DNA of 64,000 nt from Microbacterium soli (GTDB taxonomy: Bacteria > Actinomycetota > Actinomycetes > Actinomycetales > Microbacteriaceae): positions 2,418,001 through 2,482,000 of the forward strand of contig NZ_BAABCP010000001.1 of NCBI RefSeq assembly GCF_039539005.1. The letters are read 5' to 3'. The notes below the pieces were generated by a model. The model searched no databases. It saw only the letters and a program-made list of their open reading frames with translations, and had not been told where the DNA came from. Shown here piece after piece: positions 1 to 28,734 of this stretch. The translations under genes and the position numbers were made by a program. Every line of letters begins with the position of its first letter. Position 1 is the first letter of the stretch.

Positions 1-1564
1 CCACCGCCGACCCGTCCGGCAGGAAGACGGCCGAGGCTGCCGGGAGGGGCAGATGACCGGTGGAGATGAGCGGTTCGAGCGCCTCACCGGTGTGCGCGTG
101 ATAGATCCCCGCGATCGCGCCGTCCTGGGCATCCGGTGCGCCCTGGCGAAGGACGGGCCCGAGGATGGTCTCGTTGTCCGGCGGGAGCACGACGCGAGCA
201 TCACCATCCCAGGCGAGCGTCCGTGCGCTGTCCCGCTCGCCGAACTGGTCGACGGTGACGGTGAACTGCCACTGTGCGACGACCTGAAGGCCGGCATCGA
301 GAAGGGCGACCTGGCCTGCGGCGGAGGCGGCGAGAACGCGCTCGCCGGTGCGATCGCCCTCGACGAAGACAGCACGGTCGGTGAACCCGAGCTCTGCGAC
401 GGCACGCTCGGCGATGACACGACCGTCCTCGATGAGCGCGACGGAATCACCGCCGGCGACGAATCCGCTCTCGCCCCATGTCCCGACGACGGAGGCGGGG
501 GAACGCGGGCCGGCGAACCCGAGGGCTCCGCCGTCGGCGCCGAACAGATGCACGCGTCCGCCCGCAGCCGCCAGCGTCTCGCCGTCATGCGACCACGCCA
601 GGTCGACGAGCCCGGACGAGCTTTCGGTCTGAACCGGTGAGGAGACCTCTCCCAGTGGCCAGATCCGCAGCATCGAGGTCGCATCGACAGTCGCGATGTG
701 CGTTTCCGACAGTGCGATGTCGATGGGGCGGGAGGCGTGCCCGATCAGGCGGGTCACGTCGTCGGATGTGGTGGTGATCTCCCAGTCGCCGGCGACCTCG
801 GCTGCCAGGGCGAGGGCGTCACGAGCCTGGTCCGTCTCGGCGATCCGCCAGGCCTCGATCGCGAGGAGGCGAGCCAACGCGCCATCAGCACCGGCGACCT
901 GTTGCGCCAGTGCCGCGAGGCGGCGACTGTCGGCATCATCCCGCTGGGCTTCTGCCTCCGCCCGGGCACGGTCGGCCGCGGCGGCCCCCTGCACGGCCAG
1001 GACGCCGCCCGCTCCGGCGACGACGAGCAGCACCGCGAGCGCAGCAGCCCCGATCCGGGTGAGGCGTCGGACACGATGCTGGCGGCGGACGTCCTCTCCG
1101 ACGAGGTCGTCCTTCGTGGTTCCCACGACCGGTGCGACGATCTCCGCGAGCTGATCGAGGAAGACGGGATCGCGGGGCGCAGGCGGATGCATCCGATCGC
1201 CCCGGTAGGGCATGTGCCGCGGCTCCGCCGGGAATGCCGTGCGCAACGGCTCGGGGGCGGCGGTCGAACCGGCGGAGAGCTCACCCCGAGCACTGTCCCA
1301 CTCCCAGGTGCCGGTGGTGACGACGACCTGGAGCCGTTCCACCCCGACCGCGGCGAGGCGCTGCCGGATGGCCGTCGTCACCGCGGCATCCCTCGCGGAC
1401 TCCGGTGACGCCAGCAGCAGGAACCAGTCGGCGGAACCGGGATCGCCCGCGCGTGTGACGCGGACCGCGCCACGTCGACCGTAGCGGGGGAGTGCGCGGA
1501 CGAGGGCATCCGCCAGCGGCTGGTCGGGGCCGTCCGCCGCGGCGAGGTAGACGGTGGCGCTCAT
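1..1564 (-). CDS. Degenerate TIR-like, membrane-anchored protein with WD40/propeller-like C-terminus (partial, runs off left edge)
   Basis: At least 521 residues are open from an ATG at 1564 to the window edge. It starts in a 4-base ATGA overlap with the stop of the TIR gene before it, so the two are translationally coupled. Layout: a TIR-like domain (about 1-150) that keeps the DWFLLLASP core strand seen in its neighbour, one transmembrane helix (about 183-205, LAVLLVVAGAGGVLAV), an Ala/Glu/Arg-rich helix, then beta-propeller-like sequence. It looks like a tandem paralogue of the upstream gene, but the FISYSH first strand is replaced by TVYLAAA. The SxWxxxE-type motif, which holds the catalytic glutamate in active TIR NADases, is absent. 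I infer a pseudo-enzyme or regulatory partner. The C-terminus cannot be judged. Confidence 0.75.
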   Translation of the reverse strand, partial: MSATVYLAAADGPDQPLADALVRALPRYGRRGAVRVTRAGDPGSADWFLLLASPESARDAAVTTAIRQRLAAVGVERLQVVVTTGTWEWDSARGELSAGSTAAPEPLRTAFPAEPRHMPYRGDRMHPPAPRDPVFLDQLAEIVAPVVGTTKDDLVGEDVRRQHRVRRLTRIGAAALAVLLVVAGAGGVLAVQGAAAADRARAEAEAQRDDADSRRLAALAQQVAGADGALARLLAIEAWRIAETDQARDALALAAEVAGDWEITTTSDDVTRLIGHASRPIDIALSETHIATVDATSMLRIWPLGEVSSPVQTESSSGLVDLAWSHDGETLAAAGGRVHLFGADGGALGFAGPRSPASVVGTWGESGFVAGGDSVALIEDGRVIAERAVAELGFTDRAVFVEGDRTGERVLAASAAGQVALLDAGLQVVAQWQFTVTVDQFGERDSARTLAWDGDARVVLPPDNETILGPVLRQGAPDAQDGAIAGIYHAHTGEALEPLISTGHLPLPAASAVFLPDGSAV

Positions 1565-3456
1565 GAGTCCTCCCCGGTCCCGGCGCAGCCGATGGGGGCA
1601 TGGTCGACGGCGGAGAAGCCGATGAACTCCTCCCGTGAGACGGCGCCGTCGAGCGCGTCGCAGGCGATGGCGAGCATCCGGGCGGCGTCGGTCGGCCAGA
1701 GGCCCGCGGAGGTGCGCACCCAGGAGCCGCCGAGGAGCCAACGGGACTCGCTTCCCGCCGTCGTGTCGTAGCAGCCGCTCTCGGCGTACTCGAGCGCGGC
1801 GGGCAGCTCCGCGATCGTCGCCATCGTCGGCGGGTGCACGATGCCGGGCAGCGCGCAACCGTCGGCCGGGGCGAGCGCGAGCGCGTCGTGGGCGTAGTGC
1901 AGCGGCCCCGCTCTGCTGATGCTCATCGACGGGCCCGCCGTCTCCAGGGTGTCGGGGGCGAGGATGCGCACCTCCGCATCGTCGCGGACCCACAGGGCCG
2001 TCCCGTCATCGGTGAACCGAACGGTGCCGACTCCGGCGACCTCGGTCGTGGCGAGCTCGGTCAGACCGTCGTCACCGATCGCATAGGTGGTCAGACGCGC
2101 GCGGAGCGGCGCTGCTGACCAGGCCGGCCCGATACGGGCGGCGATCCTCCCGCCATCCGGGGAGATCGCGAAGGACGACGCCTCCCCGCTGCATCCCGCG
2201 CCGTCCGCACCGAGCGGGACGGGGACGGAGCGGACATTCCGCCCGGCGCTGTCCGACACGATCAGTTCCGCGCCTCCGGCCCCGTCGTGCCGGTACACGA
2301 ACGCATCGCCGTCCGCGGCGAACACCGGTTCCGTGCCCAGCTCGGGGATCGTGCCGAGGGGTTCGGCCGCACCGTCCGGGCCGAGACCGAAGATCCTGCC
2401 GTCCGCACCGACCGCGCGCGCACCGTCCGGGGTCAGATAGTGCGTCCGGCCGGGCAGCTCCCAGGTGTCGTCGGCGGAGAGATCGACCACGACGGACCCC
2501 GTGGGCGTCGCCAGCGACAGGCGTCCGCCGCCGGCATCCCCCGGCGAGGAGCTCGACCGGATCTGCTCCGGACGGTACTCGTCGGGCAGCAGGGGAGGGA
2601 GGTCGACCAGATCGGCGCCGGGACCGCTGATCGCGGCGAGCAGTGCCCCCGTCTGTGCGGTCTCGGGAGCGAGCGCGTACGCCTCGACGGCGAGCGCAAG
2701 GGCGGCGCGGGGATCCTGCGCTGAGCGCGACTTCGCCGCGAACTCCCGAGCCAGCGCGGTCTGCGCCGCCGCCTCAGCGGTGGCGCGCTCGGCCGCCGCC
2801 GCCTGCCAGCTCACCCCCGCCGCCGTGGCGGCGACGACGGCGACAGCGGTCGCCGTGGCGAGGGCGCCGAGAGCGGAGCGGACGACGGTCCTGGTGCGGC
2901 GGCGCTCGGTGGAGTCCCGGTCGGCGACCTGCTGGACCGGCTCGTCACGGATCAGGGCGACGATGCGGGCGATATCGGCGCGGAAGCGCGGGTTGTCCAG
3001 CGTCAGCTCGGTCTCCTGCCGCGCCCAGGACAGGTCGATGATCCTCGGAGCGGTTGTGAGCAGCCCGCGCAGCGCGGGATGCGCGGCGTCGGATTCGGCG
3101 CTGAAATCCCCGGAATCCGCGTCCCAGCCGAGCGTGCCCTCAGTGAGGACGATGAGGATCCGGTCTGCGCCCTTGGTCGCGAGGCAGTGCTGGATCTCCT
3201 GCCCGACCCAGTGCGAGGCCGCCGCCTGCGGTGAGGCGAGGAGGAGGAACCACTCCGAGGCGTCCAGGGCGGTCGTGATCGCGCCCCACAGATCCGGGTC
3301 GACGGCGAGGCCGGTCTCATCCCGGAACACCTCCATCGCCCGCCGTTGCCGCCAGGACCGGGCGAATTGCTGCAGACCGCGCTGCAGCGCCGGGGCGAAG
3401 GCGCCGTCGGCGGAGTGCGAGTAGGAGATGAATGCCTGATATCCGGACTGCGCCAC
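1561..3456 (-). CDS. TIR-domain transmembrane protein with beta-propeller-like C-terminal region
   Basis: 631 residues. I chose the GTG at 3456 because FISYSH follows within 10 residues, a GAGAGGG ribosome site precedes it, and it lies one base past the stop of the upstream gene. N-terminal TIR domain (about 5-150) has FISYSH, an FLLLASP strand and SHWVGQE, where E87 sits at the usual catalytic glutamate position. One transmembrane helix (about 215-240) follows, then a charged Ala-rich helix and irregular beta-rich repeats resembling a degenerate WD40 propeller. The end resembles the tail of bacterial TIR-WD40 proteins (WPTDAARMLAIAC...SREEF...C). Bacterial TIR domains commonly cleave NAD+ or make cyclic ADP-ribose signals; activity here is inferred. 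Middle gene of the TrkA/RyR - TIR - pseudo-TIR operon. Confidence 0.85.
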   Translation of the reverse strand: MAQSGYQAFISYSHSADGAFAPALQRGLQQFARSWRQRRAMEVFRDETGLAVDPDLWGAITTALDASEWFLLLASPQAAASHWVGQEIQHCLATKGADRILIVLTEGTLGWDADSGDFSAESDAAHPALRGLLTTAPRIIDLSWARQETELTLDNPRFRADIARIVALIRDEPVQQVADRDSTERRRTRTVVRSALGALATATAVAVVAATAAGVSWQAAAAERATAEAAAQTALAREFAAKSRSAQDPRAALALAVEAYALAPETAQTGALLAAISGPGADLVDLPPLLPDEYRPEQIRSSSSPGDAGGGRLSLATPTGSVVVDLSADDTWELPGRTHYLTPDGARAVGADGRIFGLGPDGAAEPLGTIPELGTEPVFAADGDAFVYRHDGAGGAELIVSDSAGRNVRSVPVPLGADGAGCSGEASSFAISPDGGRIAARIGPAWSAAPLRARLTTYAIGDDGLTELATTEVAGVGTVRFTDDGTALWVRDDAEVRILAPDTLETAGPSMSISRAGPLHYAHDALALAPADGCALPGIVHPPTMATIAELPAALEYAESGCYDTTAGSESRWLLGGSWVRTSAGLWPTDAARMLAIACDALDGAVSREEFIGFSAVDHAPIGCAGTGEDS

Positions 3457-3457
3457 G

Positions 3458-5143
3458 TCATGCCCTCTCTTCGGCAGCGGGGGTGATCTGCAGGTCTGCG
3501 GCAGTGAGGATGCCGGGCAGGCGTCGTGCCTGGTCACGGCTCTGCTCCGCGTGCATCGGGTCCACATCCGCCCAGTCCGGTGCGGCGGCACCCGGATGTC
3601 GGGAGCGGAACCAGCGGTGGTGCTCCGCCTCGGCGAGCGCCTCGACCACATCATCGTCGAGAACCGTGATCGCGGGGAGGAGCGGTGTGCGCGGGACGAT
3701 GTCGAAACCCAGCTCGCGCAGCATGCCGCGAGCGGCCCGGGCCGCGTCGTAGTTCTGCGAACGGAGCTCGTCGGGCAGCTCCGCCCAGGGGCGGTACGCG
3801 GGCTTGGCGGCGCGCTCCTCAGCCGGCAGGGAGCGATTCAGCTGCCGCAGGTATCCGTCGTGCAGCGCCCGTCCGAGGGTCTCGAGTCTGCCGTGCGCGA
3901 TCTGCTCGTCATCACCGAGCTCTGCGGCGACGTCGAACAGCTCGATCCGGTCATGCCCGTGCAGCAGGCGCACCAGCGAGGGGCCCTCCGTCACCCCCAC
4001 CACCACGGTGTCCGTGCCCCGCAGCGCCACATCGGCGCAGGAGAGCACGCTCAACGCCTCCGCATCGTCGCGCTCCGAGACGACGACCAGAGCCGGGGGC
4101 GTGTGCAACCCGTGAAGGGTCGCGGCGATCTCCCCGCGACTGTCCGGACTCCTCAACTCCTGCACGATGATCCGCGCTGACCCGTGCGTCCCGCCCAGGT
4201 CGGTGAGAAGCCGTTCGACGCCGCGGCTGCGAGCGGAGAGCAGCCAATGCACCTCCAGCACATCATCGTCCGCTCGTGCCGACCACTGCCGGGCCGCGGC
4301 GGCGATCACGGACCGGGCGACGGCATCGGCGCCGATGACGATGATCGGCGGCGGCGGTCCGGCGGTGGTGAGCAGACCCGCCCACCGGTCGATGATGACC
4401 GGGCCGGAACGATCCTCCAGATTGAAGAACTCACGCTGAAACGGTGCACCCGGGTCGTGCATGAGAGCATTCAGGTCGTTCGCGGTGTCGGCATCGGGAA
4501 CGGCGAGGAAGCAGCAGAACTCCGGCCGGAAGGACAATCTCGGCGAACGGAAGAGGTCTGCCACGGCATCGGCGATGGCCGTGGTCTCGGCCGCGTCCCC
4601 GACGAGGACGATGGCCCGGGAAGCCCGGTCGAGGCGTGCGGCGCGCAGGCGGGAGACCTCTGTCGCGCTGCCGACGATCACCGGGATGCCCAGTCGGCGC
4701 GCGGCCCGCACATGCGGACCGGCGGCATCGGTCTCGATCACGGCCACGGCTCGGCCTGCTTGTTTCGCGGAGCGTGCGGCGCGCCAGCCGCGTTCCCCCA
4801 GTCCCACGATCACGACATGCCCGCGCAGGCTCCGCACGCCCAGGGCCCAGACCCGGTGCCGGGCCACGGAGACGACGGTGCCGATGGCCGCGGTGGCGAG
4901 CACGACGGGCGCAGCCCAGCGGGCGATCTCCAGTGCCCAGGGGATCTGCCCGTCGAGCGATCCGTTCTCCAGCAGGAACAGCGATGCGGTGATGTACAAC
5001 TGCGTGCCGAAGGGGATGCCCAGGTCGTGGATGTCGGAGTACCGGGCGACACCGAACAGGCCCAGGAGGAAGACCGCCGCGACGGCTCCGAGCATGACGA
5101 TGCCGCCGAGACGATCCCAGAACATCCAGAACCGCTGCCGCAT
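3458..5143 (-). CDS. Membrane-anchored TrkA-N (RCK-like) NAD-binding protein with C-terminal RyR repeats
   Basis: 561 residues, ATG at 5143 behind a GGAGGA ribosome site. The N-terminus has hydrophobic segments at about 14-33 and 75-95 around a re-entrant-like stretch (LFLLEN...PWALEIARWAAP). This layout is familiar from putative bacterial ion channels fused to TrkA-N domains. A Rossmann NAD site follows (GLGERG, 114-119), and a second Rossmann-like unit (IIVIGADA, about 270). The last 130 residues hold two RyR-like repeats: YRPWAELPDELRSQNYDAAR, and HHRWFRSR followed by DWADVDP...QARRLPGIL. RyR modules have been proposed as nucleotide-ligand sensors in bacterial conflict systems; that role is inference here. 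First gene of the leftward operon, one base before the TIR gene, divergent from a small RyR gene. Confidence 0.8.
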   Translation of the reverse strand: MRQRFWMFWDRLGGIVMLGAVAAVFLLGLFGVARYSDIHDLGIPFGTQLYITASLFLLENGSLDGQIPWALEIARWAAPVVLATAAIGTVVSVARHRVWALGVRSLRGHVVIVGLGERGWRAARSAKQAGRAVAVIETDAAGPHVRAARRLGIPVIVGSATEVSRLRAARLDRASRAIVLVGDAAETTAIADAVADLFRSPRLSFRPEFCCFLAVPDADTANDLNALMHDPGAPFQREFFNLEDRSGPVIIDRWAGLLTTAGPPPPIIVIGADAVARSVIAAAARQWSARADDDVLEVHWLLSARSRGVERLLTDLGGTHGSARIIVQELRSPDSRGEIAATLHGLHTPPALVVVSERDDAEALSVLSCADVALRGTDTVVVGVTEGPSLVRLLHGHDRIELFDVAAELGDDEQIAHGRLETLGRALHDGYLRQLNRSLPAEERAAKPAYRPWAELPDELRSQNYDAARAARGMLRELGFDIVPRTPLLPAITVLDDDVVEALAEAEHHRWFRSRHPGAAAPDWADVDPMHAEQSRDQARRLPGILTAADLQITPAAEERA

Positions 5144-5208
5144 CGCTCGTCCTCCACCAAGGGCCAGTTACCCTGATCCTAGTGAGGAACCGGGAGGAGT
5201 GCGGCGCA
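5144..5208. promoter_or_regulatory. Divergent promoter region of the TIR/RyR island
   Basis: Only 65 bases separate the two operons. Rightward, TACCCT (5169-5174) lies 7 bases before a GTG at 5182, matching the leaderless layout seen elsewhere in the window. Leftward, TAGGAT (5181-5176) would start an mRNA about 25 bases before the ATG at 5143. The two -10-like boxes nearly abut, so both operons could be controlled at one site. No convincing -35 boxes or operator are visible. Confidence 0.45.
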
Positions 5209-5631
5209 GTGATCCACGACGAGCACGTGACACAGCTCGCCCGAGCGATGCGGATGCGTGACGCCGAGAGCCGCGGCAGGACCGCCGCGGCATGGGAGCA
5301 GCTGGACGCCTCCGAACGAGAGGCGAACCTCGACTCGGCCCGGTTCGCGCCGATCATCCTCACCGCCCTCGGGCTGAGGATCGTCGAAGGCGAGCCCGAA
5401 GGACGCCGGGATTCCCTCACCGACGAGGAACTGGATGCGGGCGCGCGGCTGGAGCATCTGCGCTGGTGCCGCTTCACCCGTCGCGCCGGTCGCAGCGGGC
5501 ACCCGGACCTCGTGCCCTGGGAGGAGCTGGACGAGCCGACTCGGGAACTCGACCGTCTTCGGATCCGAGCGCTGCCGGAGGTGCTGGCAGCGCTCGGATA
5601 CTCGGTGATCGGCCATGACGGCGCATCCTGA
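5209..5631 (+). CDS. Small soluble protein of two RyR-like repeats
   Basis: 140 residues from a GTG at 5209, nine bases after a strong GGGAGGAG. An upstream in-frame GTG at 5182 is possible as a leaderless start. There are no signal or membrane segments. Two related repeats are visible: AAAWEQLDASEREANLDSAR...LTALG (about 26-55) and LVPWEELDEPTRELDRLRIR...LAALGY (101-131), with EHLRWCRFTRR between them. These match the RyR-type pattern in the tail of the divergent TrkA-N protein (YRPWAELPDELR, EHHRWFRSR). It may be a free ligand sensor, or a competitor of the membrane protein. It overlaps the phospholipase gene by 17 bases, so co-translation is likely. Function is not established. Confidence 0.7.
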   Translation: MIHDEHVTQLARAMRMRDAESRGRTAAAWEQLDASEREANLDSARFAPIILTALGLRIVEGEPEGRRDSLTDEELDAGARLEHLRWCRFTRRAGRSGHPDLVPWEELDEPTRELDRLRIRALPEVLAALGYSVIGHDGAS

Positions 5632-6712
5632 TCGGCACAGGCTTCTCGCCATCGACGGCGGCGGAGTGCGCGGCGTCGTCGCTCTGGAGACCATCGCCGG
5701 CATCGAGCGGGTGCTCCGCCAGGAGACCGGTGACCCCGACCTGCGGCTCGGCGACTGGTTCGACTACATCGCCGGTACGAGCACCGGCGCCATCATCGCC
5801 GCCGGACTCGCCCTGGGGCGTTCGGCGGAAGAACTCCTCGAGCTGTACGTCACGCACTCCAGGGCGATCTTCCGCTCCTCGCGCTGGAGCTCCCGCATCC
5901 GGCACCGCTACGATCACGCCGGGCTCGCCGCGCTGCTCAAGCAGGAGTTCGGCGAGACCACGACACTGGGCTCCGAGACGCTGCGCTGCCTGCTCATGAT
6001 CGGGTTGCGCAATGCCAGCACGGACTCGCCGTGGCCGGTCAGCAGCAACCCCGCGGCCGCGTTCAACGATCCCGGGGCGGCCGATTCGAATCTGCAGCTT
6101 CCGCTGTGGCAGCTCGTGCGCGCGAGCACCGCCGCGCCGACGTTCTTCCGGAGCGAGCGCATCGTCTTCGGCAACGGCACCGCATACACCTTCAGCGACG
6201 GCGCGACGACCACGCTGAACAATCCCGCCCTGCAGCTGGCGCTCATGGCCACCCTGCCGGAGTACCGGCTCGAGTGGCCCCGAGGGCCGGAGAGGCTGCT
6301 GCTGGTCAGCGTCGGCAACGGCGCCTTCGCCACCCGTGCGCTCTCTCAGCTCGATCAGCCGCTGTGGCAGCAGGCGACGGCCGTGCCCGCCGCTCTGATC
6401 AACAGCGTGTCCGTGCAGCAGGATCTGCTCTGCCGTGTCCTCGGCCGGACTCGCCACGGTGCACCCATCGATGCGGAGATCGGAGATCTCCACAAGCCTT
6501 CGATCGACGACCCGATGTTCAGCTACGTCCGCTATGACGCCGCCGTCACCGATGCGGAGCTGCGCAGGCGCGGGCTCTCCGCCGAGGTGGCCAGGGCGGG
6601 CCGCCTGGACGCGGTCGATGCGATCCCGGTCCTGCGGCAGCTCGGGCGCAGCATCGCCGCGGATGTGCGAGCCGAGCACTTCGCGGGGTTCATCGGCCGA
6701 CACCCCGCATAG
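5615..6712 (+). CDS. Patatin-like phospholipase
   Basis: 365 residues with the patatin signature: oxyanion loop GGGVRG (15-20), nucleophile elbow GTSTG (54-58, Ser56) and the DGA motif holding the second dyad residue (Asp195). The dyad is complete, so lipid acyl-hydrolase activity is likely. There is no signal peptide or membrane helix, as in cytosolic effectors of the CapV type that attack the inner membrane. No clear extra domain is seen after about residue 330. The ATG at 5615 lies inside the RyR gene (17-base overlap) with a weak ribosome site, which suggests translational coupling. Beside TIR and RyR genes it is best read as the membrane-damaging effector of the island; that role is inference. 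Confidence 0.85.
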   Translation: MTAHPDRHRLLAIDGGGVRGVVALETIAGIERVLRQETGDPDLRLGDWFDYIAGTSTGAIIAAGLALGRSAEELLELYVTHSRAIFRSSRWSSRIRHRYDHAGLAALLKQEFGETTTLGSETLRCLLMIGLRNASTDSPWPVSSNPAAAFNDPGAADSNLQLPLWQLVRASTAAPTFFRSERIVFGNGTAYTFSDGATTTLNNPALQLALMATLPEYRLEWPRGPERLLLVSVGNGAFATRALSQLDQPLWQQATAVPAALINSVSVQQDLLCRVLGRTRHGAPIDAEIGDLHKPSIDDPMFSYVRYDAAVTDAELRRRGLSAEVARAGRLDAVDAIPVLRQLGRSIAADVRAEHFAGFIGRHPA

Positions 6713-6746: not shown

Positions 6747-6820
6747 GTTGGAGCAGGTATTCGACCATGGCGGCCGGACAGACCCCCCTCGTACCGGGCC
6801 GCACCGAAAGGAGCTCGGCT

Positions 6821-7867
6821 TTGGCGAGTGTTGTCTCAGGCATGTCCCCGGCCGCACGAGCGCGACGCAAACGCGGATTGCTCATCTGGGGCATCATCAT
6901 CCTTCTCATCTGGTTCCTGTGCTCGCTCGCCTTCGCGTCCATGCTGGCGCCCGCCGCACCGAGCTTCGCCTCCGCGTTCATGGCGGGCCAGGGCATCGGA
7001 GGGGTGTTCTTCCTGCTGGGAGCCATCCTGTTCCTCATCGGCTTCATCGCCGAGCTGCGAGCGCGCGCCTTCAACCGCCGCGACATCGCCCAGGCGAACG
7101 CTCTGCATCACAGGCTCGTCGACTTCTCCCGGACACCGCGGTCCGCCCTGTACTCCGCCCCCGGTGACAGCGTCGTCAGCGGGGCGAGGATCATCGAGAT
7201 CGAACGTCACTTCGACCAGCAGACCGAAGGAGCGATCACGGGTGCGCTGGAGACCAGCATGCGCATGTTCTCCACCTCCTTCGGCGTGTCCTCCGCGACC
7301 ACCTACGCGCACGACGTCGACACGGCCCGCACCTACGGCTCGAGCTCCTCGTTCACCTCCGGGAGCATCAACGGCACGACGATCGCGAACCTCTCGATGA
7401 GCCAGACGACTCGCGCCAACCTCATGGGCGACGCGCTCTTCGCGGTCTTCGAGGTGAACGGCAACGACACCTACCGGGTCGTGTCGATGTCCGCATCCGG
7501 CGTACGCGACTGGATGGCGGAGCTGATCCTCGCCGTCTCCGAGCACTTCGGCGGGCAGGCCACCCACTCGGGGAACGTCGTCGCCTCGTGGGTGCCCACG
7601 ATCACCCAGCAGTTCGGGCCGCAGGACGTGTCCTACGCCACCGACCGGCTCAAGGCGCTCGCCGCCCGCCCATACGAGGACCGGGAGTCCGTGGCGTTCG
7701 CGGGCACGACGATCGGGCGCAACGCCATGATCGCCACGCACATGCGCATCGGCGACGCACCACCGCTCGAACTGCTCCCGTCCGTGTTCCCGAGCAGTTT
7801 CGGCGCGGCGCTGGGCGCACCGGAACAGCCCGCTGCTCTGCCGCAGTCGGTCGGAGGAGGCCGGTGA
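6821..7867 (+). CDS. Two-helix membrane protein of unknown function
   Basis: 348 residues from a TTG at 6821, chosen because AAAGGAG lies eight bases upstream. An ATG at 6767 would add 18 residues of unlikely composition. Two hydrophobic helices (about 20-42 and 58-80: GLLIWGIIILLIWFLCSLAF and IGGVFFLLGAILFLIGFIAEL) form a hairpin near the N-terminus. The remaining 260 residues are soluble, rich in Ser/Thr/Ala with runs such as YGSSSSFTSGS, and probably cytoplasmic. I recognise no family. Its stop overlaps the start of the lipoprotein gene (GTGA), so the two form one unit. They could belong to the upstream island or be a separate envelope pair. Confidence 0.6.
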   Translation: MASVVSGMSPAARARRKRGLLIWGIIILLIWFLCSLAFASMLAPAAPSFASAFMAGQGIGGVFFLLGAILFLIGFIAELRARAFNRRDIAQANALHHRLVDFSRTPRSALYSAPGDSVVSGARIIEIERHFDQQTEGAITGALETSMRMFSTSFGVSSATTYAHDVDTARTYGSSSSFTSGSINGTTIANLSMSQTTRANLMGDALFAVFEVNGNDTYRVVSMSASGVRDWMAELILAVSEHFGGQATHSGNVVASWVPTITQQFGPQDVSYATDRLKALAARPYEDRESVAFAGTTIGRNAMIATHMRIGDAPPLELLPSVFPSSFGAALGAPEQPAALPQSVGGGR

Positions 7868-8742
7868 GGCGGCGCGCGGCGGCGGCCGGCGCGATCCTCT
7901 GCGCAGCGCTGCTCCTGGCGGCGTGCGCCTCAGCATCGCCCCATGCGAAGGCGCCGACCGATGCCCCCGCCGACGTCGCGGAGACGCCGGAGGCGCCCTC
8001 CCTGACCGGTGCGGACATCCAGGCCTGGATCGCGAACGCCGAGTGGTCGTTCGCCGACCGCGGACTCGAGGAGCCGATCACGATCGTTTTCGAGGACGGG
8101 AAGGCGAGCGACGACGTCATGCGCGTGTACGAGATCGGCGTCGGCGTCGAATCCGATGCCGACGGCGACGGGGTCGTCGACCTCGCCGTGCCCGTCACCC
8201 AGCTCGACGGCAACGGCTTCCAGGAGCTGTGGTACGTCTGGCTCGGCAAGGACATCGATGCGGATGCCGTGGCCGAGCAGGTCTGGTACCCCATCGCGCG
8301 TACGGTCCGCTGCGGTGACGTCGTCCACTCCGTAGAAGGCACCGACGGCGGCTTCCTGATCGACCAGACCCTCTGGATGCCCCACACCGATCAAGGGCGC
8401 GACTGCGCCGGCGGCGGAACCGGGACGCAGACCCGCGAGATCGCCATCATCGACGTCGACGGCGTCGCCTACCCCGTGCAGACCGCGCCCGTCCCGGCCT
8501 GGGGCGGTGTCTGTCCGCGTTCGGAATGGCTCGACGGCATCATCGATGACACGGTCGACGGACGGGTCGCACCGCCGGCGTCGGCTCCGCAGGCCATCGC
8601 TCCCGGCGACCCGGTCGGGCTCTACGAGCTCCCGCCGGCACCGCTTCTCACCGCAGACGGTGCGCGGTTCTTCGGCTTCCAGGGCGACCTGCCCGGTGAG
8701 GCCGGCGAGCAGCAGGTGCTGATGCACTGCGCGTTCGGATGA
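7864..8742 (+). CDS. Secreted lipoprotein with EF-hand-like Asp loop
   Basis: 292 residues, GTG at 7864 overlapping the previous stop and preceded by GGAGGAGG. The N-terminus is a lipoprotein signal: RRR, a hydrophobic stretch and the lipobox LLAAC with Cys21 as lipidation site. The mature part contains a DADGDGVVDLAV loop with acidic residues spaced as in EF-hand or dockerin calcium loops, and a second acidic LDGNGF stretch. Four or more cysteines (CGD, CAGG, CPR, HCAFG) suggest disulfides outside the cell. No enzyme motif is recognised. Coupling to the membrane protein before it suggests the two act together at the envelope. Confidence 0.65.
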   Translation: MRRRAAAAGAILCAALLLAACASASPHAKAPTDAPADVAETPEAPSLTGADIQAWIANAEWSFADRGLEEPITIVFEDGKASDDVMRVYEIGVGVESDADGDGVVDLAVPVTQLDGNGFQELWYVWLGKDIDADAVAEQVWYPIARTVRCGDVVHSVEGTDGGFLIDQTLWMPHTDQGRDCAGGGTGTQTREIAIIDVDGVAYPVQTAPVPAWGGVCPRSEWLDGIIDDTVDGRVAPPASAPQAIAPGDPVGLYELPPAPLLTADGARFFGFQGDLPGEAGEQQVLMHCAFG

Positions 8743-23067: not shown

Positions 23068-23934
23068 TCAGCCCCGCCATGCGGCGATGAGCAGCAGGGT
23101 CGCCAGGAAGCCGACGACGTAGTTGAGGATGAGGAAGCGTCGCCAGGAGCGGTTCGCAGCGGGGGATCGGTCGTCGGTCACGCTCCACCACGGCAGGGCG
23201 ATCGCGATGTACGGCAGCACGAGGGCGGCGGCCCAGGGGCCGGGCCACGGCGCCCAGAGCATGACGCACCCCGCGGTGATCCAGACGACGACGGCGAGCC
23301 TGACCGTGGACCGCGCGCCGAGCGCCGTCGCGATCGAGGAGATCCCGCCGGCGCGGTCGGGAAGGACGTCCTGCACGGCGCCGAAGGCGTGCGCGGCCGC
23401 ACCCCAGAGGAAGAAGGCGACGAGGGTGAGCACCCAGCCGGCACTCGGTGCGGCGCCCGCGAGGGACAGACCGACCAGTGCGGGGCCGACGAAATGCGTG
23501 CTGGAGGTCAGGGAATCGATGACCGGCCGCTCCTTCAGACGCAGCCCCGGCACGGAGTAGGCGACCACGGCGACCATGCTCACCGCCAGCCACGCCCGTG
23601 CCGCCGGGGTGCCGAGGGTGAACAGCAGCACGAGGAAGGGGATGTTGGAGGCCGCGATCGTCCACATCAGAGCACGGTGCAGCTCCGGCGTCGGCTGTGC
23701 GCCCTCCGCTCCGCCCTTGCGGGGATTGAGGAGGTCGGAGGCGCTGTCGAACACGTCGTTGATCCCGTACAGGGCGAGGTTGTAGGGGGCGAGGAAGTAG
23801 GCGACGCCGATCACGAGGACGACGTCCACCCGACCGGAGGCCATCAGATACGCGGCGCCGAACGGGAACGCCGTGTTGATCCAGCTGACGGGACGGGAGA
23901 CCGTCAGGAGCTGCCGGACCGCGCCGGTGGTCAT
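23068..23934 (-). CDS. crtEb: UbiA-family prenyltransferase, lycopene elongase (C50 carotenoid)
   Basis: 288 residues with seven to nine helices. The first Asp-rich motif is NDVFDSASDLLNPRKGG (about 62-78) and the second QDVLPDRAGGISS (about 187-199); both are the UbiA metal-diphosphate signatures. In C50 pathways this enzyme adds C5 prenyl units to lycopene to give flavuxanthin-type intermediates. Placement next to crtYe/crtYf strongly supports the elongase over a quinone-biosynthesis UbiA. Start ATG 23934 overlaps crtYf by four bases (ATGA). Alternative: another prenyltransferase subgroup. Confidence 0.88.
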   Translation of the reverse strand: MTTGAVRQLLTVSRPVSWINTAFPFGAAYLMASGRVDVVLVIGVAYFLAPYNLALYGINDVFDSASDLLNPRKGGAEGAQPTPELHRALMWTIAASNIPFLVLLFTLGTPAARAWLAVSMVAVVAYSVPGLRLKERPVIDSLTSSTHFVGPALVGLSLAGAAPSAGWVLTLVAFFLWGAAAHAFGAVQDVLPDRAGGISSIATALGARSTVRLAVVVWITAGCVMLWAPWPGPWAAALVLPYIAIALPWWSVTDDRSPAANRSWRRFLILNYVVGFLATLLLIAAWRG

Positions 23935-24254
23935 CGTCCGGGCCCCTCGTCCGTGTCGCGTCGGGAGCGCAGCGCCGCCCACACTGCAGGCAGCAGGACA
24001 CCGGCCGCCAGCGGATACGACAGGTCCTCCACGGGGACGGGCCCGATGTGCACGCCCAGGAGCCGCGACGGCTCGTAGGAGAAGAATCCCGCGGTGATCA
24101 TCACGGCGTCGAAGACGAGCGTCAGGGCCAGCAGGACGGTGATGGTCAGCAGGACGGGGACCGTTGCAGGGCGCCGCGCCGCCGCGAGCCGCAGAGCCGC
24201 GGTCAGCACGACGACGGCGGCGAGGAGGATCACGGACAGCAGGGGGTACGTCAT
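23931..24254 (-). CDS. crtYf: C50 carotenoid epsilon-type cyclase subunit
   Basis: 107 residues, three hydrophobic helices (LLSVILLAAVVVLTAALRL, VPVLLTITVLLALTLVF, PLAAGVLLPAVW). The small lycopene-cyclase-domain motif PVEDLSYPLA replaces the PxEE motif of CrtY-type halves. In C. glutamicum and relatives CrtYe and CrtYf form a heterodimer that cyclises the elongated chain ends, giving decaprenoxanthin-type pigments. It is coupled on both sides by ATGA overlaps (crtYe upstream, crtEb downstream). Which of the two small subunits is e or f is assigned by gene order. Confidence 0.82.
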   Translation of the reverse strand: MTYPLLSVILLAAVVVLTAALRLAAARRPATVPVLLTITVLLALTLVFDAVMITAGFFSYEPSRLLGVHIGPVPVEDLSYPLAAGVLLPAVWAALRSRRDTDEGPGR

Positions 24255-24610
24255 CCGAGATCCTCCGACCGGTCGCGACGGATGCCCCGCAGTCGGGCGG
24301 TGCCGACGATGCGGACGAAGCCGGTGTAGGCGACCATCGTGCACGTCGACAGCAGGACCAGGAACACCGGCTCCTCCAGCGGCAGCTCCGGGGCGAGCAC
24401 GATGCCCGTCGCCCACGGGCTGTCCCCGCGGAGGAAGATGCCGGCGGCGATGCCCGTGGCATCCCAGAGCAGGAAGAAGACCGTTCCTGCTGCGGTGACG
24501 ATGGCAGCCGTGATCGGATCCCTCCAGAAGAACAGCCGGAAGCGATGATCCAGCAGCAGCACACAGCCCAGGCCGGCCAGCAGCCCGAGAAGATGCGTCA
24601 TTCCCATCAT
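24251..24610 (-). CDS. crtYe: C50 carotenoid epsilon-type cyclase subunit
   Basis: 119 residues, three to four helices. It carries the canonical LPLEEPVF motif of lycopene cyclase domains (about 75-82), complementing the PVEDL motif in crtYf. Three nearby ATG codons (24610, 24607, 24601) are possible. I chose 24610, which overlaps the crtI stop as ATGA, but AAGGAGAGG sits very close to it, so 24607 or 24601 may be the true start. It forms the heterodimeric cyclase with crtYf. Confidence 0.82.
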   Translation of the reverse strand: MMGMTHLLGLLAGLGCVLLLDHRFRLFFWRDPITAAIVTAAGTVFFLLWDATGIAAGIFLRGDSPWATGIVLAPELPLEEPVFLVLLSTCTMVAYTGFVRIVGTARLRGIRRDRSEDLG

Positions 24611-26199
24611 CCTCTCCTTCGCACGTCGGCGCCCGCGGGCTCGGGCAGCGGACCGGCGGAGCGGTCGCCACGGATGCGCTTGAGGACGAGCTCGGCGCTG
24701 ATCAGGCACATCGGCACGCCCACCCCCGGTGACGTCGTCGCCCCGGCGAAGTACAGCCCTCGTACGCGCCGGGAGGCGTTCCGGGCGCGGAGGACGGCGC
24801 TCTGCGACAGCACGTGCGCCGGTCCCAGCATCCCTCCGCGCCAGGAATGGAAGTCGGCGGCGAAGTCCGCCGGGCCCCGCGTCTCGCGCACGAGGATGCG
24901 TGGGCGCAGATCCGGGATGCCCGCCCACTGCGAGACCGTGTCGATCGCCGCATCCGCGATCTCCTCGACCCGCCGATCACCTCCGCCCTCGCTCCCGCCC
25001 CGGCCGAGCGCGACGTCGGGCGGCACCGGTACGAGGAGGAAGAGGTTCTCATCGCCCTCCGGGGCGACCGTCGGGTCGGTCTGCGACGGCTTGCACGCGT
25101 ACAGCGAGGCGGGCTCGGGAACCCGCGGTCGCGTGCCGAACACGGCATCGAGATTCGCATGCCAGTCCTCGGCGAGGAACAGGGAGTGATGCGGGAGCCG
25201 CGGAAGGCGGCCACGGATGCCGAGCATGACCGTCACCGCTCCCGGCCCGCTCACGCGGCGGCGCCACCAGCGCTCCGGCCAGGTGCGCAGCCGGGGAGGC
25301 AGGAGACGGGTCTCGGTGTGATGCAGATCCGCGGCGGAGACGACGATGTCCGCGGAGAGGCGTCGCTCGACGCCCGTGCCGTCGCGCCAGCGGACACCGC
25401 GCACCTCGGCGCCCGTGGTCGTGGTCGTGGTGAGGATCTCCTCCACTTCGGCATCCGTCACGATCACCGCTCCGGCATCCTCCGCCAGAGCCGTCAGACG
25501 GTCGATGACGCGGGCGAAGCCGCCCTGCGGGTAGCGCACGCCGTCATCGAGGTCCAAGGCGCTCAGCAGGTGGTACAGGGCCGGTGCGCGCCGCGGGTCG
25601 GTGCCGAGGAAGACCGCGGGGTAGCCGAGGATCTGCCTGAGCACGGGATGCGCGAACCGGCGGGAGGCGAAGGCGTCCAGGCTCGTGGACAGCAGGCCCG
25701 CCAGTCTCGGCAGCACGCGCAGGACCTCGGGGCGGAACAGACCGCTCAGCCGCGTGTACGGGTTGTACAGGAAGTGCGCGAGCGCGAGGTCCTTCGCCCG
25801 GCGCGCGGAGGAGAGATAAGCCGTCAGCCGCCGGCCGGCGCCCGGCTCGAGACGCTCGAACAGGATCGGTGCCGCGCCGCGCGCGTGCACGGCGACGGGG
25901 GAGACCGGGGCGCCCTCGTGGCGCTCGGCGAAGACGGCGTATCCGGGATCGAGCGATCTCAGATCCAGCTGCTCGTCCGACGAGGTGCCCATCAGCGCGA
26001 AGAAGTGCTCGAAGGCCTCGGGCAGGAGCAGCCACGACGGCCCGGTGTCGAATCGGAAGCCGTGACGGTGCAGCGAGCCGGCGCGTCCGCCGACGACGGC
26101 GTTCTTCTCGAGCACGGTCACCTCGTGGCCGTCACGGGCGAGCAGTCCCGCCGTGGCCAGCCCTGCGACCCCGGCCCCGATCACGATGACGCGGCTCAT
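24607..26199 (-). CDS. crtI: Phytoene desaturase
   Basis: 530 residues. FAD-binding Rossmann motif VIGAGVAGLATAGLLARDGHEVTVLEKN (in two parts, residues 5-32), followed by GGRAGSLHRHGFRFDTGPSW. The C-terminal bacterial phytoene-dehydrogenase signature is LYFAGATTSPGVGVPMCLISA (about 488-508). It converts phytoene stepwise to lycopene. Length agrees with CrtI enzymes. The ATG at 26199 overlaps the crtB stop by ATGA. Codon use and GC match the neighbours. Confidence 0.93.
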   Translation of the reverse strand: MSRVIVIGAGVAGLATAGLLARDGHEVTVLEKNAVVGGRAGSLHRHGFRFDTGPSWLLLPEAFEHFFALMGTSSDEQLDLRSLDPGYAVFAERHEGAPVSPVAVHARGAAPILFERLEPGAGRRLTAYLSSARRAKDLALAHFLYNPYTRLSGLFRPEVLRVLPRLAGLLSTSLDAFASRRFAHPVLRQILGYPAVFLGTDPRRAPALYHLLSALDLDDGVRYPQGGFARVIDRLTALAEDAGAVIVTDAEVEEILTTTTTTGAEVRGVRWRDGTGVERRLSADIVVSAADLHHTETRLLPPRLRTWPERWWRRRVSGPGAVTVMLGIRGRLPRLPHHSLFLAEDWHANLDAVFGTRPRVPEPASLYACKPSQTDPTVAPEGDENLFLLVPVPPDVALGRGGSEGGGDRRVEEIADAAIDTVSQWAGIPDLRPRILVRETRGPADFAADFHSWRGGMLGPAHVLSQSAVLRARNASRRVRGLYFAGATTSPGVGVPMCLISAELVLKRIRGDRSAGPLPEPAGADVRRRG

Positions 26200-27098
26200 C
26201 GGCCCGGCTCCGCGACGGTGCGCAGCACGGCGCCGGCGACGATGGCGGCCTTGCGGGCGTCGGGCACGCGCACGCGCGTGCTGTACAGGGTGCTGACCGG
26301 GGTGGCGCTGATGCGATCCGCCAGTGCGGCGAACAGCCCCAGGGCGCTGCGGACCGCGACCCGCGCGTCCCTCGGCAGCAGCGGGACGGCCACGCGCGCC
26401 TCGGCCAGCCGGGCTCGGATCCGCAGCAGCCGAGCATCGCGATCTGCATCCGTCAACCGGCCCTTCTCGCGCAGGTAGCTGCGGTGCAGCCGTTCGGTGT
26501 CGTCGGCGAGATCCCGCAGGAAGTTCACGTCCTGGAAGGCCGCCCCCAGTGCCCGTGCGCCGTGCTCGAGAACGCTCAGCTGCCCGTCGCTGCGGGATTG
26601 GTGGCACAGGAAGACCCGAAGGCACATGAGTCCGACGACCTCTGCGGAGCCGTGCACGTACTGCTCGTGGGAGCGATCGTCGTGGCCCCGGACGGTCGTG
26701 GCTCCGGCGGGGCGGAGGTCCATGCGCATCGAGTCGAAGAACGGCGCCGTCAGATCCTCGTCGATGCCGCAGTCCCGCGCCGTGCGGGCGAAGGCGTGCA
26801 GCACCATGTCGCCGCTGCATCCGAGGCGGATCGCGCGGCCGACCGCCTGCTCGTACTCGCAGAGCGCGGCCAGCTGCGCGGCGGCGTCCAGACCCGCCTC
26901 CTCCGTCACGCCGTCGACCAGCTCGTCGGCGATGCGAACCATGGCGTAGATGTTTCGGACGTGCTGCCGGTGCCGCCGGCCGAGCAGGCGGGTGGCGAGA
27001 CCGAAGGAGGTCGAGTAGGCGCGGATGACCTCCGATGCGGCGGCTTCGGCTGTGTCGGTGAACAGCGGCAGGCCGGCGGTGGCTCTCGTGCCCGTCAT
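26196..27098 (-). CDS. crtB: Phytoene synthase
   Basis: 300 residues. Shows YSTSFGLAT (about 28-36), the first Asp-rich motif RIADELVD (about 55-62), the second DVNFLRDLADD (about 190-200), and YLREKGR, all squalene/phytoene synthase signatures. It joins two GGPP molecules head to head to phytoene. Third gene of the operon, coupled to crtE and crtI by ATGA overlaps. Confidence 0.93.
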   Translation of the reverse strand: MTGTRATAGLPLFTDTAEAAASEVIRAYSTSFGLATRLLGRRHRQHVRNIYAMVRIADELVDGVTEEAGLDAAAQLAALCEYEQAVGRAIRLGCSGDMVLHAFARTARDCGIDEDLTAPFFDSMRMDLRPAGATTVRGHDDRSHEQYVHGSAEVVGLMCLRVFLCHQSRSDGQLSVLEHGARALGAAFQDVNFLRDLADDTERLHRSYLREKGRLTDADRDARLLRIRARLAEARVAVPLLPRDARVAVRSALGLFAALADRISATPVSTLYSTRVRVPDARKAAIVAGAVLRTVAEPGR

Positions 27099-28210
27099 GA
27101 CGCCCTCCCGTCGATGAGCCCCACCACGTCGTCGAGCACGGCCCTGGCGGGAGGCGGGAGCAGTCCAGCGCGGGCGGCATCCGCGATCCCGGCTCGAGCT
27201 CGGGCGAGCTGCTGGGCGACCAGACGGTGGGCGAACTCCTCGGCGCCGCAGGCTCGGAACCGGTCGCGCATCGCGTCGGCCTCCGCTTCCGTGAGATCAG
27301 CGGCGCCGAAGCGGGGTGCGATGTCCTCCCACGCGCCGGTGCGGCGCGCGTGGGCGACGAGCGTCGTGCGCTTGCCCTCCCGCAGGTCCGAACAGGGGTC
27401 CTTGCCGTGCGAGCGCCCGTCGCCGAACATCGCCAGCGCGTCATCCTGAACCTGATACGCCAGTCCGAGGGCCCGGGAGACTGTCGCGAGCACCGTTTCG
27501 AGATCCTCGCCGCGCCCCGCCAGGATCACCGCCAGACGCAGCGGGAGCGCGAAGCTGTACGCCGCGGTCTTCTCCGCCGTCATCCTCAGAACCGTCTCCG
27601 GCTCGTCGGCGATCACCCCGTCACTCAGAGCCGTGTCGGTCAGCTCCCCGGCGACGGTCGTGCTGATCGTGCTGTGCAGCAGCCGGAGCATGCGCGTGCG
27701 CACAGCGGCCGGCAGGTCGGCGAGGGCGAAGATGCGATGCACCTCGGTCAGCAGCAGATCGCCCATCAGGATGGCTCCCGTGCATCCCCAGTGCCGGGCC
27801 GCCGCGTTCGTGCCGCGGGCGGGAGCAGGATGCTGATCCTGCAGGCGCGCGATGAGATTCGGGGCGTGCCGGCGCTGCAGATCTCCGTCGATCACATCGT
27901 CGTGCAGGAGGAATGCGAAGTGCAGCAGCTCGATGGCGCAGGCCAGCTGGAGCACGGTCCGGGGCGCCGCCGAGTCGGAGCAGCGCGAGGAGACCGCCGG
28001 ATCGGGGCGGTCCGACAGTGCGGCGTGGAGGCGGAGCAGCATCCGCGGGCGCAGCATCTTCCCGTCTGCGATCTGCTCTCCCGCGAGCCGCCACAGCAGG
28101 GCGAACTCGTCGCCGTGCGTGAGCGCGGACGCCTCCCGCTCCGCAAGGAGCCGGCGCAGTTCGGGCCCGACCTCGGCCTCGGGATCCGCGGCGCCGCGCA
28201 GCGACGTCAT
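27095..28210 (-). CDS. crtE: Geranylgeranyl diphosphate synthase
   Basis: 371 residues. First Asp-rich motif LLHDDVIDGDLQRRH (about 103-117) and second YQVQDDALAMFGD (about 254-266), with GDLLLTEVH between them. These mark a trans-polyprenyl diphosphate synthase. Position between idi and crtB makes GGPP synthase (crtE/idsA type) the most likely role, supplying C20 units for phytoene and possibly C5 elongation. A second family member lies at 54578-55651. ATGA overlaps on both sides. Confidence 0.9.
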   Translation of the reverse strand: MTSLRGAADPEAEVGPELRRLLAEREASALTHGDEFALLWRLAGEQIADGKMLRPRMLLRLHAALSDRPDPAVSSRCSDSAAPRTVLQLACAIELLHFAFLLHDDVIDGDLQRRHAPNLIARLQDQHPAPARGTNAAARHWGCTGAILMGDLLLTEVHRIFALADLPAAVRTRMLRLLHSTISTTVAGELTDTALSDGVIADEPETVLRMTAEKTAAYSFALPLRLAVILAGRGEDLETVLATVSRALGLAYQVQDDALAMFGDGRSHGKDPCSDLREGKRTTLVAHARRTGAWEDIAPRFGAADLTEAEADAMRDRFRACGAEEFAHRLVAQQLARARAGIADAARAGLLPPPARAVLDDVVGLIDGRAS

Positions 28211-28734
28211 GGTCGCAGCCCGTCCAGCTCGAGGAGCAGCGGAAGCTGCTCGCGCATCCACGGGCTGAAGACGAATCCCGTCGTCTGCAGGGCCTGGGCG
28301 ACGGCCCCGGGCTGTGCCCAGGCCCAGTCCAGGACCTCGGTGGGATCGGGCGCCGGCGTTCCGTCCAGCAGGGCGACGGAGACAGGGCAGATCTCGTTCT
28401 CGACGACTCCCGACGCGTCCACGGCACGGTACCGGTAGGAGGGGAGCACGATGCGGATCGATCGGATGCGAACCCCGAGCTCCTCGTGGGCGCGCCGCTC
28501 GGCCGCCCGGACCGGATGCTCTCCGGGGAAGGGATGCCCGCAGAAGCTGTTGGTCCACACTCCCGGCCAGGTCGTCTTCTCCAGCGCGCGGCGGGTGAGC
28601 AGCAGCCGCCCGTCGGAGTCGAGCAGATAGCAGGAGAAGCCGAGGTGCAGCGGTGTGAGGGCGGTGTGGACGGTGTCCTTGCGCGCCGATCCCGTCGGTG
28701 TGCCGTCATCCGACAGGAGCGTGATCAGTTCCAT
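28207..28734 (-). CDS. idi: Isopentenyl-diphosphate delta-isomerase (type 1)
   Basis: 175 residues. Nudix-type IPP isomerase with TNSFCGHPFPGE (catalytic Cys, about 62-73), RRAHEELGV (Nudix-like, about 80-88) and FSPWM near the C-terminus. It interconverts IPP and DMAPP to feed crtE. First gene of the leftward operon, ATG at 28734 behind GAGGGG. Its promoter region is AT-rich and faces a MarR regulator. Having idi in the crt operon occurs in several Microbacteriaceae. Confidence 0.92.
   Translation of the reverse strand: MELITLLSDDGTPTGSARKDTVHTALTPLHLGFSCYLLDSDGRLLLTRRALEKTTWPGVWTNSFCGHPFPGEHPVRAAERRAHEELGVRIRSIRIVLPSYRYRAVDASGVVENEICPVSVALLDGTPAPDPTEVLDWAWAQPGAVAQALQTTGFVFSPWMREQLPLLLELDGLRP

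Follow-up and report, generated by a model that had tools for sequence, protein, structure and literature searches.

We find that a 64,000-nucleotide stretch of the Microbacterium soli genome (contig NZ_BAABCP010000001.1, positions 2,418,001 to 2,482,000; hereafter, the window) carries a conserved module of five genes. Two operons lie back to back over 65 bases, as a first-pass annotation of the sequence had claimed, and all five of the genes named there are present. One operon encodes an RCK-type channel protein ending in RyR domains and two TIR-domain membrane proteins (TIR1 and TIR2), and the other encodes a small tandem-RyR protein and a patatin-like phospholipase. We estimate a probability of about 50% that these genes constitute a TIR-based nucleotide-signaling module with membrane effectors, in which TIR1 would make a signal, RyR domains would read it, and a channel and a phospholipase would deliver the output. 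This reading overlaps with the alternatives considered below, and the likelihood given for each belongs to overlapping readings. The features are as follows (window coordinates):

1..1564 and on to window -322 (L004 14678-16564), minus strand: TIR2, 628 aa; apparent pseudo-TIR, transmembrane segment, and WD40-like C-terminal part
1561..3456, minus strand: TIR1, 631 aa; TIR, transmembrane segment, and WD40-like C-terminal region; Pfam TIR_2, PADLOC ThsB
2932..3447, minus strand: TIR domain of TIR1, residues 4-175; WVGQE at 3196-3210
3458..5143, minus strand: RyR-RCK channel protein, 561 aa; first transmembrane helix, pore helix, second transmembrane helix, two Rossmann (RCK) domains, and tandem RyR
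4940..5011, minus strand: pore helix and loop of the channel, residues 45-68; TVGYG-type filter absent
3917..4822, minus strand: double RCK gating-ring region of the channel, residues 108-409
3479..3910, minus strand: channel C-terminal tandem RyR, residues 412-555; repeat 1 with HDGY and repeat 2 with HHRW
5144..5208, no strand: divergent intergenic region, 65 bases
5209..5631, plus strand: small tandem-RyR (Repeat12-type) protein, 140 aa; H83 (5455), W86 (5464), H98 (5500), and D115 (5551)
5615..6712, plus strand: patatin-like phospholipase, 365 aa; Ser56 (5780) and Asp195 (6197)

There are overlaps of 4 bases between TIR1 and TIR2 and of 17 bases between the small RyR and patatin genes. The divergent gap measures 65 bases provided that the small RyR gene starts with the GTG at 5209, and a promoter and terminator scan found no sigma-70-type consensus between the two operons. 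TIR2 is in the window as the degenerate TIR gene that had been described, but the window holds only part of it, from the ATG at 1564; its stop codon is at window -322.

A search for the channel in GTDB 220, with one genome per species, identified a single additional channel gene, carried by Demequina mangrovi, a member of a different family. There, the patatin, small RyR, channel, TIR1, and TIR2 genes occur in identical order and strands, overlaps included, with identities to their window counterparts of 63%, 53%, 51%, 41%, and 44%, respectively. Because the same divergent layout recurs at 41 to 63% identity, we conclude that the five genes form a unit. The co-occurrence that the first-pass annotation had proposed to look for is thus found in a second family, and the five-gene set, as represented by the window and Demequina mangrovi, is not scattered independently across genomes. 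It is also extremely unlikely that unrelated island genes have simply crowded together by chance. The genes do lie in a variable stretch beside a tRNA-Pro gene, with a passenger pair of membrane and lipoprotein genes downstream that is also found alone. However, the shared order, strands, and overlaps across families at this level of divergence, together with equal contig sizes in further relatives, speak against chance, and the Demequina mangrovi copy refutes it for the five genes as a set. At such identities, recent transfer of the whole island to Demequina is unlikely as well.

The base-by-base reading covered these two five-gene loci. Linkage in other relatives was approximated indirectly, by longest contigs of equal size, with 8000 candidates scored in each of the channel and small-RyR searches and 120 patatin relatives listed. 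At least 7 of the 11 other channel proteins share a longest-contig size with a small-RyR protein, and at least five of those seven contigs also match one of the 120 listed patatins. Among the matches listed, 11 of 32 small-RyR relatives share both contig size and data source with a close patatin. A twelfth coincidence (size 1653) joined records of different sources and was discounted as a chance match.

Both TIR proteins have the same build, in which a predicted transmembrane segment (a single one in TIR1, at residues 190-218, with an Arg-rich stretch just before it; residues 165-198 in TIR2) is followed by a weakly recognized beta-propeller region (Pfam; TIR2 scanned inside the window only). 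In TIR1, this region gives a weak PD40 propeller match. The propeller-like regions are a feature absent from the first-pass annotation. TIR1 matches Pfam TIR_2 (9.3e-8) and has both FISYSH and W83-VGQ-E87, which confirms the earlier description of a TIR transmembrane protein with intact FISYSH and WxxxE motifs. The Glu of WxxxE is the catalytic residue in the TIR family, and both W83 and E87 are also kept in the Demequina TIR1. Models of ThsB match TIR1 weakly, just below the cut-off in Pfam (ThsB_TIR, 21.1 bits against a cut-off of 21.2; 4.2e-4) and at 3.2e-6 in PADLOC. Since the positive-inside rule places the Arg-rich side of the membrane segment inside the cell, TIR1 probably has its TIR domain in the cytosol and its propeller part outside. 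TIR2 has Ala in place of both the W and the E of WxxxE, in the window and in Demequina alike. It is thus degenerate, as had been noted, but the same loss in both copies marks it as a conserved pseudo-TIR and not a fresh wreck. From its sequence, TIR2 looks like a retained pseudo-TIR partner.

The assignment of the small protein as a double RyR held up in both profile and fold searches. Pfam RyR matches it at 1.1e-6 (29.2 bits against a cut-off of 27.4; translation scanned from 5182), its own profile matches an RyR chimera in the PDB at 1.8e-15, and a fold search recovered the Repeat12 fold. Equivalents of the RyDEP-type ligand residues H75, W78, H100, and D117 are kept in 30 of 30 small RyR proteins. 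The co-encoded patatin (Pfam Patatin, 5e-22) retains DGGGVRG, GTSTG, and DG, so that the Gly-rich loop, GxSxG, and DG(A/G) motifs are all intact, in agreement with the Ser/Asp dyad reported from the first pass. It is matched by the PADLOC phospholipase effector model (3.1e-38), and its best PDB match is CapV (1.1e-19). Across the module, then, candidate ligand residues are conserved and candidate active sites are intact.

The predicted model of the channel protein comprises a two-transmembrane (2TM) unit with a pore helix and a double RCK gating ring, with low confidence in the pore loop. A TVGYG-type selectivity filter, the signature of RCK-gated potassium channels, is found in 0 of 12 channel-family proteins; the pattern LF...G..P...L..AR is conserved in their pore region. 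The first-pass description of a TrkA-N membrane protein with RyR-like repeats is upheld by Pfam for TrkA_N (4.5e-11), but Pfam calls no RyR at the C terminus. The repeats are instead indicated by reciprocal matches of profiles built here: The channel profile matches the small RyR gene (E 6.2e-14, model positions 421-553), and the small-RyR profile matches the channel C terminus (E 3.5e-12). Against the PDB RyR chimera, the channel profile gives a weak match (E 0.016). The H and W of the ligand site are kept in the channel RyR of all 12 proteins. A BFVD fold search with the channel yielded no convincing match: The two at E <= 0.001 had poor TM-scores, and a phage potassium-channel protein ranked third. 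Among named relatives, the one nearest to the channel protein, with 75% identity, comes from Microbacterium sp. Mu-80.

According to the accessible sections of PMC13232231, the TIR products 2' and 3' cyclic ADP-ribose (2'cADPR and 3'cADPR) are targets of phage RyR-domain proteins, which bind or cleave them. These findings make concrete the earlier suggestion of a TIR-derived signal sensed by RyR modules. In such a mechanism, TIR1, with TIR2 as its pseudo-TIR partner, would sense an event, either at the envelope or inside the cell, and turn NAD+ into a signal of the ADP-ribose type (2'cADPR, 3'cADPR, or a related molecule), which the RyR modules would read. Binding of the signal to the channel RyR, behind the double RCK ring, would open (or close) the 2TM pore, while the small tandem-RyR protein, being translated with the patatin, would most likely be the signal-binding partner that controls the phospholipase. 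Depolarization and phospholipid cleavage would then stop or kill the cell, in the simplest case as abortive defense against phage. Virus defense through damage to the cell's own membrane is the most likely role. With clearly less confidence, we propose a complete bacterial TIR-to-RyR pathway, whereby an outward-sensing membrane TIR receptor makes a cADPR isomer, which acts through Repeat12 domains to open an RCK channel and through a second Repeat12 protein to unleash a phospholipase.

RyR domains also occur near TIR genes elsewhere. At E <= 1e-5, RyR was detected in 13 of the 396 genomes of the order sample, and a TIR gene lies within 5 kb of RyR in 2 of 12 of these (own genome excluded), against an expectation of 0.035. 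In genome G614, a TIR gene is 21 bases ahead of an AAA-RyR gene. A further genome, G083, from the genus of the window, has a 1011-aa TIR1-like gene and, after it, a 769-aa gene; one or more additional TIR genes lie nearby. The 769-aa gene combines a 2TM-Rossmann part (28.8 bits) with a weak RyR-like part (15.4 bits). This genome is outside the above count because it was found via its TIR and channel.

Two loci of this kind were noted. In L070 (5572-10078), a TIR gene, an AAA-RyR gene, and a weakly YspA-SLOG-like gene lie in a row, a candidate for another RyR conflict system. In L078 (5188-18999), from the genus of the window, a TIR1-like gene and an RyR-like channel whose C-terminal PGDYG match is just below the cut-off occur together with a vWA/GDSL-lipase gene and another TIR gene; by eye, a preceding 748-aa gene resembles a pseudo-TIR.

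A number of observations weigh against the reading as a signaling module. TIR1 is only moderately near known TIR families, and its TIR region has no phmmer match among PDB chains. In the alignment made here, the second ligand His is missing from the channel RyR in 11 of 12 proteins, and the Asp of this domain falls two residues out of register. The patatin family is much broader than the module, with 8000 of 8000 scored candidates matching. The top listed patatin relatives are mostly RyR-linked, and below about 60% identity there are many others (e.g., from Nocardioides and Arthrobacter); the module thus seems to have taken up a common patatin. None of the 120 listed patatins falls on either of two channel-RyR contigs (sizes 3316423 and 11219), and among the matches listed, six credible small-RyR/patatin contigs have no channel and the contigs of four channel proteins show no partner at all. 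Thus, the five parts are not strictly inseparable, and their linkage is strong yet not absolute. Solitary RyR channels are also found: Five genomes (L064-L068) encode a 2TM-Rossmann-RyR protein of about 700 aa with all four RyDEP-type ligand residues, and there is no TIR gene within two genes of it in the four loci with listed neighbors (L067 is a 4.6-kb contig). L071 holds a solitary 541-aa version. In four of the five genomes with solitary RyR channels (G450, G463, G559, and G578), no TIR_2 match was found, and RyR channels can therefore work without a TIR signal. Finally, RelA_SpoT, SLOG (LSDAT), and RyR are joined in one protein in L069 (8986-11466), possibly an alarmone or nucleotide enzyme with an RyR reader. 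Together with the solitary channels, this protein suggests that RyR domains there may read other adenine nucleotides.

These observations bear on two other readings. The RyR domains of the module might sense ordinary adenine nucleotides or linear ADP-ribose, with the TIR proteins acting as scaffolds or simple NADases, so that NAD+ depletion or a shift in ATP/ADP would move the channel. Besides the RelA_SpoT/SLOG/RyR fusion and the channels in TIR-free genomes, binding of NAD, ADP, and ATP by RCK domains (from the titles of GsuK and TrkA structure entries) and of AMP-PCP and ADP by human RyR3 Repeat12 (PMC12627627, accessible sections) is consistent with this. We nonetheless regard it as unlikely, as repeated TIR neighborhoods and the nanomolar affinity for cADPR isomers reported in the RyDEP domain family (PMC13232231) favor a dedicated signal. 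Alternatively, though this too is fairly unlikely, the small tandem-RyR protein might be a brake, setting a threshold by RyDEP-like hydrolysis or sponging of the signal, which would itself act on the channel and perhaps straight on the patatin (as in CapV). Glycosidase and sponge activities have both been reported in the RyDEP domain family (PMC13232231), H83 and D115, the equivalents of the RyDEP dyad, are invariant in 30 of 30 small RyR proteins, part of the ligand site is lost in the channel RyR, and the nearest PDB relatives of the patatin are the directly nucleotide-activated CapV proteins. However, other RyDEP homologs that were tested left the signal undegraded although they have the conserved residues (PMC13232231, accessible sections). 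Moreover, the 17-base overlap that couples small RyR to patatin translation points to an effector partnership no less than to a brake, as does the apparent linkage of 11 of 32 small-RyR relatives to a close patatin among the matches listed.

The module is rare and accessory. At E <= 1e-30, the full channel gene is found in 1 of 366 genomes of the genus of the window and in 1 of 44 genomes of the Demequina genus. Across the order, it is present in 2 of 396 genomes, the window's own included, with four more giving partial matches. The channel profile matches 38 of 295 genomes; all of these matches except the window's own and the divergent G083 gene are read as partial TrkA-N/Rossmann matches (short ranges and low scores). 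To the left of TIR2, a tRNA-Pro (GGG) gene at window -2463 to -2387 is followed by a stop-riddled tyrosine-integrase fragment at about window -2281 to -2003 (L004 12537-12997 with the tRNA). A left-flank gene is present in 31 of 59 genomes, four of which were fetched. Three of the four (G042, G029, and G040) have an intact-looking phage-type integrase at the tRNA-Pro spot; the tRNA-Pro itself was located in G034 and in two of the three. Between the tRNA-Pro and the next conserved stretch lie about 32 kb in the window genome versus about 10 kb in G034, which places the module in a variable region. The channel has no match in plasmids or IMG/VR contigs, and the small RyR has no close copy in 50,697 phage records or IMG/VR contigs. 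A divergent RyR query gave weak RyR matches in 240 phage records.

This distribution also bears on a possible role in envelope-stress or osmotic control, whereby outward-facing propellers would monitor the cell wall, and turgor and lipids would be adjusted nonlethally through the channel and the patatin. Osmotic and potassium control are classical functions of RCK channels, both TIR proteins are membrane-anchored with propeller-like C termini, and solitary RyR channels occur without TIR. We consider such a role quite unlikely, because a module present in so few genomes (1 of 366 and 1 of 44) and situated at a tRNA-Pro insertion spot that retains part of an integrase is more in keeping with an accessory mobile function than with housekeeping.

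No such system is known in PADLOC or NCBIfam, and the first-pass annotation was aware of no named one with this set of parts. The four module proteins searched have no match in PHROGs. We found no description of the five-gene set in the open-access literature, although a 2025 preprint survey of TIR systems may cover it. One close comparison is with Thoeris, in which a TIR protein is likewise placed with effector genes and to whose ThsB TIR1 bears a weak resemblance. However, Pfam finds no SIR2, SLOG, or macro-domain effector in the five genes, the TIR proteins of the module are membrane proteins with propeller-like parts, and its candidate effectors are an RyR-RCK channel and an RyR/patatin pair. 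As Thoeris effectors are absent, we do not claim membership.

Cyclic oligonucleotide-based antiphage signaling systems (CBASS) combine a CD-NTase with an effector. The module shares the patatin core, with intact catalytic motifs, of CapV-type CBASS, but its patatin scores 94.1 bits against the CBASS_lipase model (NCBIfam), under the cut-off of 200, and CBASS membership fails because no CD-NTase is among the five genes. RCK-gated channels (GsuK, MthK, Slo1, and CASTOR/DMI1) have the same 2TM pore and double RCK; unlike them, the module channel lacks a TVGYG-type filter and ends in a tandem RyR. With phage RyDEP, the module shares the RyR (PF02026) fold and, in the small RyR, the conserved ligand residues H, W, H, and D. 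It differs in that this small RyR is a bacterial, tandem two-repeat protein that is encoded in an operon with a patatin and beside TIR genes. In contrast to the animal ryanodine receptor, whose Repeat12 it resembles, the module has a bacterial RCK pore and gating unit and not the RyR calcium-release pore.

If the proposed pathway is correct, prokaryotes would have their own counterpart of the connection between cADPR and animal ryanodine-receptor channels, which has long been disputed. The action of cADPR isomers on animal RyR is left open in the accessible sections of PMC13232231; if the signal gates the channel, the module would offer a small genetic system to test cADPR isomers on RyR Repeat12. 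In this locus, it is the host that carries the RyR domain, both within an ion channel and adjacent to a phospholipase, with TIR genes alongside. A phage antidefense domain would thus be the host's own signal reader in an immune system, and a channel type that lacks a potassium filter and an RyR/patatin pair would join the known TIR-driven effectors.

Several neighboring genes were also noted. A radical SAM gene (Pfam, 2.1e-17) at window -1794 to -520 (L004 13206-14480) lies between the tRNA-Pro and TIR2. Downstream of the patatin, a two-transmembrane membrane gene (6788-7867) and a lipoprotein gene (7864-8742) were considered as sixth and seventh members and rejected. Two lipoprotein homologs (L005 5958-6914 and 7789-8463) flank the Demequina module. 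However, the membrane/lipoprotein pair recurs in G026 (L062) without TIR, RyR, or patatin matches, and the lipoprotein gene alone is found in 5 of 99 genomes in the genus, counting the one that holds the window. Because the pair is found without the module, and the lipoprotein gene also on its own, both were left out. Farther along the window, at 23068-28734, a run of genes resembles, by eye, a carotenoid cluster with an isopentenyl-diphosphate isomerase gene.

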